Virus record (IMG/VR): IMGVR_UViG_3300028027_000221
Coordinates: 1 to 25,288 of that record
From: a virus
Direction: 5' to 3' (one strand)
DNA length: 25,288 bases
Below, one piece after another: positions 2,651-12,485 of this stretch. Within the stretch, counting starts at the first letter, position 1; every line of letters begins with the position of its first letter. The notes beneath the pieces were generated by a model. The model was given only the letters and a program-made list of their open reading frames with translations. It did not search any database and had not been told where the DNA came from. The position numbers were made by a program, and so were the translations under genes.

Positions 2651-4732
2651 TTAAATAGTACTTATTGCTTGTACTTTTTTTGTTTTGTCTTGCATTTTGG
2701 TAATATCACTATCAACTACGACAACTTTATAAGTACTTTGTGCTTGCACTTGTTGTTGTGGTGTGGATATTCCTGTACCTGCAATTCCCATATTTGCGTT
2801 TGCTCCTCCGCCAGTTGTTGGTGCTGAAACAGAAACCCCACTACCTAAAATAGACTTAACACGTGCCATGCTTGCAAATATCTTTGCAGTTCCTGTCGCT
2901 AATTGAATATAAGGTGCTAGAGGATTGATTTTATTAGCTGGATTTGCTGGGCTAAATGAAATAGCTGTTAAGCCACTTATTGCTGTTGCTGTGTCTATTG
3001 CGACCTGTGTGATAGCGAAAGCCTTTTGAATTGCCGAACCTTGTTTAGCCAAGCCTGCTAATTCCCCAAAGATTGAACCAACCGCTGTAATTAATTGCTG
3101 TTTACTTTCTTTTAAAGCTAAATCGATTTGTAATTGACGTTCCTTGCTTTCGTCTGCTATGCCTACTAAATTAGCTTCGTGTTGTGCTGTTATTTTCTCA
3201 CGTTCACCATTTGTTAAAGTGGTGTTAGCCATTTGTTGTGCGAAGTCCAAATTCTCTAATTCAATACGTTTTTGTTGTTTCAAATTAAAATCTTCCTCTG
3301 CTCTAATCAAATCAGCTTCAATTTTTGATTTAGCATCTAAATTTTCCCTATCTCTTTTTTCTTTTGTCGTTTGTTCTGCTAAAGCCTTTTCTTCAATTCC
3401 TTGTTGAATCTTTAATTGCTTTTCAAGTTCTGCAAATTCTTTCTTTTTACCATATTGCAAAGTGATTTCTTCAAGTTCTCTTTTATGCTTTTCTTTTAAA
3501 GCGACAAGTTCCCTTGTATCTGTATCTTCAATATTAGCAATAGTTAAATCTGTTATTCTACGCTCTAATGCTTTTTGTTCTTCAATGGCTTTTAGTTTTT
3601 CTTCTTTAACTTTTTGGTTGGTTTCTTTTGTTTTCTTTATTTGCTCCTCACTTGCCTTTGTACGTTGTTCTTTACTATTAGCATAGAACTCGGTGTCTAA
3701 TACTTGCATAGATAGTTTTAAACCGCTTATTTCATCATGTGTTGCTCTCGCTTGTTCACGTTCTTTTTTACTTAATAAATCGTAAGAGTTGTATCGAACC
3801 TGTGCGTTGAATAATTGCTTATCTAATACCGCACGTTCTAATTTGTATAGTTCAGCATCGCTAACACCTTTCGCTTTGCTTAGTGCTAATTCCTTTTCTA
3901 AGTCATTTAAACCGCCTTTTTTAGCATTACGTTTTCTTTCGCTTGCATCTATTACTTGGTTTAATACACTCAATCCTTTTTCTTCTGCTGCATTTTGTTT
4001 TTCTATTGCTTCAGTTGTTTTATCCGTTGAACTACCAAACAATCCCATCGCTTCCGCTGCCATTCCTAATGCTACAACAATCAAACCTATTCCAGACGTT
4101 GCTAAAGCTATTCTAAAGCCTTTCATCGCACCTGTAGAAGTACCAACTACGAACGCATATACTTTTTGTAGCGTTGTCATTGTACCTGTCGCACTTGCGT
4201 TGGCTAATTCTGCTGTGGTTAACGAGGCGAAAGCTCCTAATACTTTACCTTTAATCGAGTTTGCAAGTTCTAAACTATCATTACGTAACTCTTTCATTGC
4301 ACTAATACCTTGTGTTAAGGCAATTGCACCTTGAACTTTAAGCATCTGTTTTTCGATTTCCTCACTATTCTTACCAAACAACGCTTGTGCTCCTGTAACC
4401 ACTGAGAAAGCTCCTGCAATTCCTTCGGCTGTTCTTTGAAATTTACCTCCAAACTTCTCAGGGTCTGCGTCATTAATAGCATCGGCAACCCCTCTTAATT
4501 GTTCTTTAATTTTACCTGCTCTACTTGCTACTTGTTCAAATTCTTTACTCGCTGGGTCTAATCCTTGAAGCTGAATAGTAAGTTGTCTAAGTTCTTTTTT
4601 TAGGTTCACGAAACTTCCGCTTGTTTTCTTAGCCTCTTTATCTACACCCTCAATAGCATCACCTACGCTATTAACCTTATTAACGCTATCTCCTGTATCA
4701 ACTCCTACTTTAAATATTATTTCTTCTGCCAT
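2651..4732 (-). CDS. Tail tape measure protein
   Basis: This 693-residue protein begins with a short charged segment and a long helical region (about 30-130) typical of flavobacterial tape measure proteins (VDKEAKKTSGSFVNLKKELR, then SKEFEQVASRAGKIKEQLRG). A hydrophobic helix lies near residues 208-232 (IALATSGIGLIVVALGM), a long Glu/Lys-rich coiled coil at about 240-545, and further Ala/Gly/hydrophobic segments at about 550-620. Tape measures set tail length inside the tube and may cross the host membrane during injection. With about 0.15 nm per residue, a tail near 100 nm would be expected, which is inference. It is the second-longest late gene. It starts one base beyond the fibre gene's stop codon. 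Unusually, it is far from the tail assembly chaperone. Confidence 0.88.
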   Translation of the reverse strand: MAEEIIFKVGVDTGDSVNKVNSVGDAIEGVDKEAKKTSGSFVNLKKELRQLTIQLQGLDPASKEFEQVASRAGKIKEQLRGVADAINDADPEKFGGKFQRTAEGIAGAFSVVTGAQALFGKNSEEIEKQMLKVQGAIALTQGISAMKELRNDSLELANSIKGKVLGAFASLTTAELANASATGTMTTLQKVYAFVVGTSTGAMKGFRIALATSGIGLIVVALGMAAEAMGLFGSSTDKTTEAIEKQNAAEEKGLSVLNQVIDASERKRNAKKGGLNDLEKELALSKAKGVSDAELYKLERAVLDKQLFNAQVRYNSYDLLSKKEREQARATHDEISGLKLSMQVLDTEFYANSKEQRTKASEEQIKKTKETNQKVKEEKLKAIEEQKALERRITDLTIANIEDTDTRELVALKEKHKRELEEITLQYGKKKEFAELEKQLKIQQGIEEKALAEQTTKEKRDRENLDAKSKIEADLIRAEEDFNLKQQKRIELENLDFAQQMANTTLTNGEREKITAQHEANLVGIADESKERQLQIDLALKESKQQLITAVGSIFGELAGLAKQGSAIQKAFAITQVAIDTATAISGLTAISFSPANPANKINPLAPYIQLATGTAKIFASMARVKSILGSGVSVSAPTTGGGANANMGIAGTGISTPQQQVQAQSTYKVVVVDSDITKMQDKTKKVQAISTI

Positions 4733-10000: not shown

Positions 10001-10573
10001 TTATTTTGGTTTTTTAATTAGTAATTTGATTGATTGTCCTATTAAGTTAGAAATACTTTCCTTCATATAGTCTTTTTTTTCTCTATTCAGAACTTTATCT
10101 GCAAAGTGAGTAGCTTCTATACCTGTCATTCTAACATGGTTTACTATCATTCCAGCTAATTGCTCACGTGTTACACCTTCTTCATTCGGTGTGATACCTT
10201 TATCATAAATCCATTTACGTATTGACTCGTAAAACGTCATATTACCTTTAGGTGCTTTACCATGTGTTGGAGCACCTCGATTGACTTTAATACCATTAAC
10301 ACCATAGTTAATATATTTCCAATGCGGTGCTGCATATGTTTCGATTAACTCAGGGCTTAGTTTGGTAGGTTGAAAAGATTTGGCTAACTCACCACTCGCA
10401 TAAGCTTTATGACCTTCTGAATTAGGTACAAGTAATTGTTCCCTTAATTCCTCAATGATTTCATTTGTAAGCCTCAATAAAAGTTCAGTCAAAGGATTGT
10501 CAGAAGTATTTTTTAATATACTCTCAGCCCTTCCACTATCTAAACTATCTATTAAATCACTTTCGATTGACAC
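10001..10573 (-). CDS. HK97 gp10-like tail completion/neck protein
   Basis: The protein has 190 residues. The central segment APHWKYINYGVNGIKVN followed by HGKAPKGNMTFYESIRKWI resembles the core of gp10-like tail terminator/completion proteins, where an A-P-x-x-Y-x-x-Y-V-x-x-G strand is followed by a helix with WI and KGI. The C-terminal part (MTGIEATHFADKVLNREKKDYM, then a long helix) matches the usual GT-x-x-F-x-x-K-V ending. Such proteins cap the tail tube or join it to the neck. It starts inside the chaperone frameshift extension (17-nt overlap). The assignment is by pattern and position. A small tail protein without this role is possible. Confidence 0.55.
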   Translation of the reverse strand: MSIESDLIDSLDSGRAESILKNTSDNPLTELLLRLTNEIIEELREQLLVPNSEGHKAYASGELAKSFQPTKLSPELIETYAAPHWKYINYGVNGIKVNRGAPTHGKAPKGNMTFYESIRKWIYDKGITPNEEGVTREQLAGMIVNHVRMTGIEATHFADKVLNREKKDYMKESISNLIGQSIKLLIKKPK

Positions 10574-10817
10574 GCTGTATGGTATTAATTTCTTTCTCTT
10601 TTGTAAAGTTAATAAATTTAAGTCTATGATTGAACGTGAAAATGTTCCAGCTTGTAACTTCCTCCCAACTTACACTAAATTCTTTTGATAAGTAGTGGAT
10701 TAATTGCTCCCAAACATAAGATTGCTTAGTGTTCCCTTTATCCTCACTCTCTTTATTCTGCTTTCCATGAATTTGCTCATTGATTTGAGTGATTGTCGCA
10801 AAAAAAAATCTACGCAA
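10557..10817 (-). CDS. T-like extension of tail assembly chaperone (-1 frame)
   Basis: This 86-codon frame opens at a TTG (10817) inside the 202-aa gene and has no good start of its own. It lies in the -1 frame relative to that gene, and the two meet at a run of nine T. Slipping at T-TTT-TTT would give a 250-residue fusion: 169 residues from the upstream frame and 81 from this one. The C-terminal part (WEQLIHYLSKEFSVSWEEVTSW, shown here in pieces as WEQLIHYLS and WEEVTSWNIFTFNHRLKF) fits the pattern of T domains in gpGT-type chaperones: W-x-x-L/I, a polar stretch, E-x-V, then a helix ending in a charged KEKE-like tail. It is probably made only as the fusion. Confidence 0.65.
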   Translation of the reverse strand: MRRFFFATITQINEQIHGKQNKESEDKGNTKQSYVWEQLIHYLSKEFSVSWEEVTSWNIFTFNHRLKFINFTKEKEINTIQRVNRK

Positions 10818-11308
10818 TTAAGGTATATAGGTAGTGGCAAATGTTCTTTAAACAACTCCATACGTACACTATTAGGGTGTTTCATATTCTTATTTTCGTC
10901 AAGCTCACCATATGTAGTACCGTGTTCAACGTACATCATTGCGACCAATTTTTCAGGCTGTTTTGTAAAGTCTGAATTACTCACATCTATATGCCAACCT
11001 ATACCAACTTTTGAAGGATTTACCAAATCGAATAATTGACCATTAACAATTATTTGTTCTTTCGGCTTCATAGGTTTGTAGTCGTTAAACAACGTTATGC
11101 AGTGCTTATACACATCTTCTATGTTTGAGATATATGCCTTTCTTAAATCGCTTAATTTCGCACCTGTGATAAGAGATACAAACTCAATCATAAGTTCAAT
11201 ATCAAACTTGTTTTGAAACTTTGGATTCGTCAACACTTCAACGTGTCTAATTCTTAAATCATTAATCGTCTTAGGTGCTGTAACCTTAATATACTTCGAA
11301 GTACCCAT
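10700..11308 (-). CDS. Tail assembly chaperone (gpG-like)
   Basis: The 202-residue soluble protein starts with YIKVTAPKTINDLRIRHVEVL, followed by helices (ELMIEFVSLITGAKLSDLRKAYI) and a small beta portion near 85-110. This arrangement resembles the G-type chaperones of Bacteroidota siphophages that coat the tape measure during tail assembly. Support comes from the nine-T slippery site at 10800-10808, where a -1 shift adds a T-like domain. Without the shift, 33 further codons are read before the stop at 10700. It overlaps the end of the large terminase gene by 23 nt. Chaperone genes normally lie next to the tape measure gene, but here five virion genes intervene. Confidence 0.65.
   Translation of the reverse strand: MGTSKYIKVTAPKTINDLRIRHVEVLTNPKFQNKFDIELMIEFVSLITGAKLSDLRKAYISNIEDVYKHCITLFNDYKPMKPKEQIIVNGQLFDLVNPSKVGIGWHIDVSNSDFTKQPEKLVAMMYVEHGTTYGELDENKNMKHPNSVRMELFKEHLPLPIYLNCVDFFLRQSLKSMSKFMESRIKRVRIKGTLSNLMFGSN
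10799..10810 (-). other. Slippery run for programmed -1 frameshift
   Basis: On the minus strand GA is followed by nine T (10808-10800) and then G. In the chaperone frame the codons are GAT TTT TTT TTG. Sliding back one base keeps Phe-Phe pairing (heptamer T TTT TTT) and enters the T-like frame. A weak CTCA/TGAG hairpin lies about 13 nt downstream. A nine-base homopolymer could also cause transcriptional slippage, where one extra U gives the same fusion. Confidence 0.6.
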
Positions 11309-12485
11309 TTCTACTATTTTTCTTTACTGATTGTATTGCAAGTGCTAAACTCATCACTCCATCATCGTGTACACCTTGTGGCGCACCATATTGTACTCTA
11401 CGAGTTTTCTCGTTGTAAATATAAGTAAATGCGTTTAATTCATCTACAAGCCAATTCTCGTTTAATATGCTTATTTCTTTGCTCTCAAATAATACCGCTA
11501 AATCTTCAATCATTATCGGCTTAGTTGATACGCTTGTTACAAATGGATGTACGTATTCGTAACACTTGTTTTGCAGCATCTCAAAGAAAACGTCCCCTTG
11601 GTTATTCACCTCGACAAAAGTTTGTGCTCTATACTCTTTAATTTTGTTTGCTACTTTGTCTATGATAGTGTTCCATTCGTCGTGCCTCCAACGTTCAACA
11701 TAAACCATTTGATTATATTTGTTGACTATTGAAAGTACAGTGTAATCGTCCGCTCTACCTATATCTAAACCTGCATATAGTTGAGTGTTATTCTCTGTTG
11801 GTTGTTTAATAGCTTGGTCAACGTGTTTGAATAAACCACTTGCATTATCTATAAATTCTGCCAAGTATTCCTGTCTGAATATATGATCAGGTAAACTACG
11901 TTTTCTTTCGTCCAAATCCGCCTTATCAATCATAGGGTTGTCATAACTTGTAAACTGAAAGTATTTGTATCTTTCATCGTAGTTATGCTGCATCGATAGT
12001 TGATAAAAATGATTTTTACCTTTTGGAGTACTAATAAATATTACCTTCTTACCCTTAACTAAGACAGTTGCACTTAGCACTTCGCTCCATAACTCTGAGC
12101 GTGTGAATGCTGTCTCATCTATGATAAGATAGTCGAATGTATTACCTCGAATGTTGTCGGGTCTTTCACCACTAAAAAATTGAATCTTAGAACCAAAACC
12201 ACTAATCGTTAAATCACTTCTATTATACTCGAATAAGCCACTATTTTTCGTCACCGCTTCCAACTCATCAAACACTTTCTTTCCTTGCTTATAAATAGGT
12301 GTAACCCACGCAATAGAGCAACCTTTATGATTGATAGCCCAGTAAAGCATTTGATTAATACCAAGCATTGTTTTGCCAAACTGCCTACCTATGTTTAGGA
12401 TATAATATTTGTAACTCTCTTTGTTAATTGAGTTATGAATAAGTAATTGTTTTTCGTGTGGTTTGTAACCTTTAATCGTTGACAT
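11286..12485 (-). CDS. terL: Terminase large subunit
   Basis: This 399-residue DNA packaging motor has both expected domains. The ATPase part carries Walker A GRQFGKT (33-39), Walker B YLIIDET (119-125) with the catalytic Glu124, and the coupling motif STPKG (152-156). The nuclease part shows Asp240 in AGLDIGRADD, the acidic FVEVNNQGD segment near 295, and Asp374/Asp375 in GVHDDGVMSL, the RNase H-like metal-binding set. Length is normal for compact terminases. The enzyme cuts concatemeric DNA and pumps it into the prohead through the portal. It overlaps the small subunit gene by 14 nt, the usual coupling. Confidence 0.95.
   Translation of the reverse strand: MSTIKGYKPHEKQLLIHNSINKESYKYYILNIGRQFGKTMLGINQMLYWAINHKGCSIAWVTPIYKQGKKVFDELEAVTKNSGLFEYNRSDLTISGFGSKIQFFSGERPDNIRGNTFDYLIIDETAFTRSELWSEVLSATVLVKGKKVIFISTPKGKNHFYQLSMQHNYDERYKYFQFTSYDNPMIDKADLDERKRSLPDHIFRQEYLAEFIDNASGLFKHVDQAIKQPTENNTQLYAGLDIGRADDYTVLSIVNKYNQMVYVERWRHDEWNTIIDKVANKIKEYRAQTFVEVNNQGDVFFEMLQNKCYEYVHPFVTSVSTKPIMIEDLAVLFESKEISILNENWLVDELNAFTYIYNEKTRRVQYGAPQGVHDDGVMSLALAIQSVKKNSRNGYFEVY

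Follow-up and report, generated by a model that had tools for sequence, protein, structure and literature searches.

Gene pair and T run in the window

The window analysed here was the whole 25,288-nt stretch of IMG/VR virus record IMGVR_UViG_3300028027_000221 (positions 1 to 25,288). Its minus strand carries two open reading frames that share 118 nt (10700-10817). The zero-frame ORF (10700-11308) starts at an ATG and encodes a short product of 202 aa followed by a stop codon, and the -1-frame ORF (10557-10817) encodes 86 aa with a TTG as its only start. The frames meet on the minus strand at ...GTA GAT TTT TTT TTG CGA..., where a run of nine T (T9; 10808-10800) contains T TTT TTT, phased on the zero frame as a -1 shift requires, an in-phase X XXY YYZ heptamer of the type used in -1 ribosomal frameshifting.

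Joining residues 1-169 of the zero frame (11308-10802) to 81 residues of the -1 frame (10802-10560) gives a 250-aa fusion, the long product (10557-11308). The same fusion is reached by a -1 shift or by one additional U in the mRNA. Its shared N-terminal, gpG-like domain of 169 aa (10802-11308) was modelled by AlphaFold with a mean pLDDT of 87, and its C-terminal, T-like domain comprises 81 aa and a stop codon (10557-10802). Two overlapping ORFs giving a short product and a -1 fusion are the architecture of gpG/gpGT-type chaperones. The overlap of 118 nt, the nine T and the sum of 169 and 81 to 250 residues agree in every number with the original prediction.

On both strands of the window, three T9 runs were observed and nine were expected from shuffling. 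T9 by itself is not rare here; the evidence lies in the conservation and the position of the run.

Gene order and predicted function

The gene of the terminase large subunit (TerL; 11286-12485, minus strand; Terminase_6N profile match) is directly upstream of the pair and is its conserved neighbour. The next gene downstream encodes 190 aa (10001-10573, minus strand), and its GTG start falls within the last codons of the -1 frame, 17 nt inside its end (10557-10573). Judged from this overlap, its translation may possibly be coupled to that of the fusion. The operon runs from TerL through the pair and genes of 190, 393, 727, 189 and 447 aa to the tape measure protein (2651-4732, minus strand; PHROG 3336, E = 0.00045), an XkdF-type protease and a capsid-like protein. 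An A9 run near the end of the protease gene (2089-2097) was considered as a second slippage site and rejected, since a stop codon precedes the next gene's ATG in its frame and slippage there would not fuse the genes.

Neither domain gained a hit in PHROGs and Pfam profile searches of the window proteins, nor a credible match in PDB when searched by fold and by sequence profile. The proposed resemblance of the added part to gpGT T-domains thus found no database match in its support. The N domain of one relative (L043) matched Phage_TAC_7 weakly (E = 0.0019, 18.6 bits, with a curated cut-off of 25). From the gene order, the recoding architecture and this weak match, we infer that a tail assembly chaperone is the most likely role; the identification given in the original prediction stands on these three points.

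The recoding could be real and the product something else, such as a protein of the neck or an accessory to packaging. This question concerns function and is independent of the mechanism. The pair adjoins TerL, five genes separate it from the tape measure gene rather than placing it directly upstream as in gpG/gpGT, and no profile match rose above threshold. However, the fusion pair lies within the tail operon, the weak match of the L043 relative is to a chaperone family, and in prophage contig L264 a homologous pair lies immediately before a 946-aa tape-measure-like gene and overlaps its start, though this gene itself matched no tape-measure profile. Gene order in prophages L266 and L269 is much like that of the window, and both have tape-measure matches. 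A product other than a chaperone is, on this evidence, quite improbable.

Viral relatives and conservation of the run

Relatives were collected from scans of viral contigs with the terminase as a handle, which returned about 190 loci. Nearly all of them have the same pair downstream of the terminase. After removal of exact duplicates, 119 homologous viral pairs remained: 118 with T9, and L167 with T10. With N-domain redundancy set at 93%, T9 was present in 54 of 55 pairs. Two near-identical contigs retain both frames and T9. This constancy holds although N domains have as little as 13-20% identity to the window protein and C domains as little as 10-20%. Only at the two TTT codons do consecutive nucleotide columns of the N domain reach 98% identity or more; these columns number six. 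The comparison of homologues bore out the proposed programmed fusion strongly, with both frames conserved.

The run occupies all three codon phases, with at least three phase changes on the tree at constant length. T TTT TTT is in phase for a -1 shift in every T9 member, as would suit the rival explanation, in which the ribosome alone shifts by -1 on U UUU UUU in the manner of lambda gpG/gpGT and the extra T's are kept for efficiency or coding constraint; T9 could be tuned for ribosomes. Exact run length independent of codon phase speaks against that explanation, as does the substitution pattern. Changing T8 to C would alter neither protein in most phase-1 lineages and would leave U UUU UUC in place, but the change occurs in no phase-1 lineage, and TTC is frequent in several of them. 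No T8 was seen among the homologues, which have either T9 or canonical heptamers. An A/T homopolymer of at least nine at the junction with conserved length is what transcriptional slippage would call for.

The only T10 runs seen were those of L167 (L167:3829), which keeps the -1 pair, and of L121 (L121:4418), which has one single 252-aa frame. The terminase of L121 is also frameshifted, which suggests sequence errors, and its T10 is likely one of them. L121 is the one contig that favours a sequencing or assembly error, a mutational frameshift or replication-slippage phase variation of a single gene. Against it stand the T9 runs of the 118 distinct pairs, which come from independent assemblies, and those of two cultured phages. 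Run lengths would be mixed under phase variation, and L121 itself is probably wrong. Since T9 is constant and the -1 frame is under selection, error and phase variation were rejected for the family, and their probability is negligible.

A few loci have no T9. L038 has other genes downstream, L044/L098 (the same contig) has an N domain that breaks off, and L057 has N and C domains in two frames with the junction deleted. These may be replaced or damaged loci. The MAG contigs L200 and L202 also have no T9, and their terminase is 43% identical. Between L040 and the window, the terminases are 76% identical and the chaperone N domains less than 20% identical. By this sequence comparison, the chaperone cassette seems to have been exchanged between phages.

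Host and cultured relatives

The window protein sequence found no relative in the cultured-phage collection. A fold search of BFVD with the N-domain model (pLDDT 87) led to protein gp38 of Nonlabens phage P12024S, which adjoins TerL, and a tblastn search from L050 confirmed the homology (P12024L, E = 5e-7, 99% coverage). Nonlabens phages P12024S and P12024L have exact T9 and the -1 C-domain, the latter not annotated as such. In the GenBank record of P12024S (JQ823122; L203:23136-23830), the pair is represented by gp38 and a 55-aa gp39 inside the missed -1-frame domain. Flavobacterium phage 6H, a weak fold match, and Polaribacter phage P12002L yielded no clear homologue when examined.

The Nonlabens phages, a Chitinophagaceae MAG contig (L199) and many Bacteroidota prophages among the relatives make a Bacteroidota host likely. 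The earlier description as a Bacteroidota phage is thus upheld through relatives, not through the window's own host.

Selection on the two frames

Beyond the zero-frame stop, the differences between close relatives fall on -1-frame codon positions 1, 2 and 3 in the numbers 428, 51 and 1464. This pattern indicates that the -1 frame is translated and under purifying selection. In the overlap, zero-frame codon positions 1, 2 and 3 differ 213, 743 and 642 times, with position 2 the most variable, and the zero-frame tail ranges from about 10 to 70 aa among relatives. It is therefore not the zero-frame protein that maintains the extra T's. Only about 10 aa of zero-frame tail follow the run in L036, L037 and L039, and almost no tail would thus be needed in the short product.

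Long A/T runs in the same loci

Runs of at least nine were counted elsewhere in these loci (461 kb). One T run was observed compared to about 20 expected, and five A runs compared to about 51 expected. The depletion is strong, and the number of runs falls sharply at length nine. Such avoidance in the same loci is a further mark of transcriptional slippage. Bacterial slippage at 9T has been reported, and avoidance of nine-long runs is evident in a large share of bacterial genomes (PMC1088944). Among the prophages examined, T9-type loci carry exactly one run of at least nine each, and the heptamer-type L264 and L267 carry none. Two T9 prophages have a local GC of 0.63, at which 0.002-0.004 such runs per locus are expected.

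Prophage homologues and structure downstream of the shift site

Prophage homologues were obtained from about 2000 genome searches across Bacteroidota, in which some genomes were repeated, and class assignment was limited to homologues with both domains recognised. Exact T9 was present in L209, L213-L217, L221, L225, L232, L233, L237, L247 and L259, at local GC from 0.34 to 0.63. Other homologues have a canonical ribosomal heptamer with no surplus T in place of T9: T TTT TTT (L218, L230 and L231), T TTT TTA (L219 and L226), T TTT TTG (L222 and L239) or A AAT TTT (L223 and L238). The heptamer-type homologues carry T4-T7. L263 has a -1 pair in which the site was not recognised. Some distant relatives are single-frame; of these, L210 is the best supported and the others have weak C-domain matches. 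In L210 (G177), the N and C domains lie in one uninterrupted frame, and the junction has no T run.

On the combined tree, the T9 and heptamer modes required four changes, and well-supported branches make at least two of these unavoidable. L221 (T9) and L238 (A AAT TTT) are sisters.

Structure 3' of the site was compared with dinucleotide shuffles. The heptamer class was more structured than these (mean z = -2.1, n = 9), with long near-perfect stems 3' of the heptamer in L222, L239 and L223 (z = -4.5 to -4.9). The T9 class was at background (mean z = -0.01, n = 14; and -0.04, n = 55). The classes differed with p = 0.004 and 0.0007, values that are optimistic since the fold window was picked after a first look, though with three windows in agreement, and since the members of the heptamer class, a small one (9), are partly related. 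Control windows elsewhere in the genes gave no significant difference. No upstream or downstream structure above background was found in T9 members, and SD-like tetramers lie upstream in only two of the 55 members of the T9 set. Thus, T9 members show neither of the ribosomal stimulators sought, 3' structure or an upstream SD. By analogy with dnaX, this contrast would be expected for two different mechanisms.

The use of heptamers in homologous prophage genes also adds to the case for a purely ribosomal shift in the T9 members, and the T7 relatives L218, L230 and L231 suggest that U UUU UUU can act through the ribosome in such hosts. Nevertheless, the T9 class is without the 3' structure or SD, unlike the heptamer class, and together with the exact run length and the missing T8 this leaves a purely ribosomal shift unlikely. 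Substantial slipping of both polymerase and ribosome on the same run would agree with a run that satisfies the requirements of both in all members; the additional constraint observed is, however, the one expected for the polymerase, and such dual slippage appears very improbable.

A prophage of G444 (L264:4772-8448) has a 661-aa gene between two homologous chaperone genes whose ribosomal-type heptamers differ. The 661-aa gene sits in the tail operon, and its start resembles a SIR2-type defence protein by eye.

Proposed mechanism

We consider, with a probability of about 0.7, that the pair encodes a tail assembly chaperone resembling gpG/gpGT and that transcriptional slippage is the main source of its fusion, a reading drawn from comparative sequence analysis. 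RNA polymerase would slip on T9. Most mRNAs would carry U9 and yield the 202-aa short form, and a part of them would gain one U (U10) or lose two. In the U10 mRNA, the 81-aa C-terminal domain would be in frame, and ordinary translation would give the 250-aa fusion. The ratio of short to long form would then be set by the slippage frequency. By analogy with lambda, the N domain may be the binding partner of the tape measure protein, and tail-tube subunits may be recruited by the C domain.

The polymerase as the slipping agent is inferred, as are the direction and rate of slipping. A ribosome needs only T TTT TTT, yet two further T's are kept in any phase, which points to the polymerase rather than the ribosome. 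The polymerase is also favoured because the T8 to C change is never seen, long A/T runs are depleted elsewhere and stimulators are absent, and because a sister class has canonical heptamers and stem-loops. The original prediction had left the mechanism open; this comparison favours transcriptional slippage, and the gpG/gpGT strategy that the prediction had named is probably not used in its ribosomal form.

More broadly, it is fairly probable that control of the gpG/gpGT ratio moved from the ribosome to RNA polymerase in a widespread chaperone family of Bacteroidota phages, in which T9 is exact across nearly unrecognisable proteins and the mechanisms switched more than once. The ribosomes of Bacteroidia do not recognise SD sequences (PMC9976891). 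A frameshift stimulator would therefore be missing in these hosts, which is a possible reason why polymerase slippage was favoured.

Programmed ribosomal frameshifting has a textbook example in the tail chaperones, and a large family appears to do the same job at transcription. Homologues that still have heptamers and stem-loops offer a natural experiment on replacement between two recoding levels. Recoding at a T run would explain a fusion missed by gene finders in Bacteroidota phages, as in the cultured Nonlabens phages where it is unannotated. A cultured phage-host pair allows a direct test of the mechanism.

Comparison with known recoding systems

A recoding review (PMC5009743) and the GeneTack survey (PMC3711429) treat tail-chaperone ribosomal frameshifting and transcriptional slippage separately. 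Full-text searches of open-licence papers for the two subjects combined turned up no case in which slippage produces a phage tail chaperone, and the novelty is accordingly provisional.

Lambda gpG/gpGT (PMC5009743) shares with the window pair a short product and a -1 fusion from overlapping frames, a place in the tail operon and the probable chaperone role. However, lambda uses ribosomal frameshifting and the conserved signal here is exactly T9, no sequence similarity between the two was found, and the window pair sits after TerL, unlike gpG/gpGT, which directly precedes the tape measure gene. Pfam family Phage_TAC_7 (tail assembly chaperone proteins, E, or 41 or 14) is linked to the pair by the weak L043 N-domain match, which is below the curated cut-off, and the window protein itself has no match to it.

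In the Shigella mxiE and spa13 genes (PMC1088944, PMC5009743), polymerase slippage on an A/T run, a U run in mxiE, likewise joins two overlapping ORFs. They are bacterial secretion genes, not phage genes, and their slippage is not known to extend across such divergence. In Citrobacter rodentium tssM (PMC4256274), a phage-tail-like machine needs both length variants, which arise from transcriptional frameshifting, but the run is A11 in a prematurely interrupted gene reported from few species. Two modes are also seen in dnaX of Thermus and E. coli (PMC3711429, PMC1088944), homologous genes that arrive at the same pair of products either through polymerase slippage (A9) or through a ribosomal heptamer. 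Slippage in dnaX shortens the product, whereas slippage in the window gene would lengthen it.
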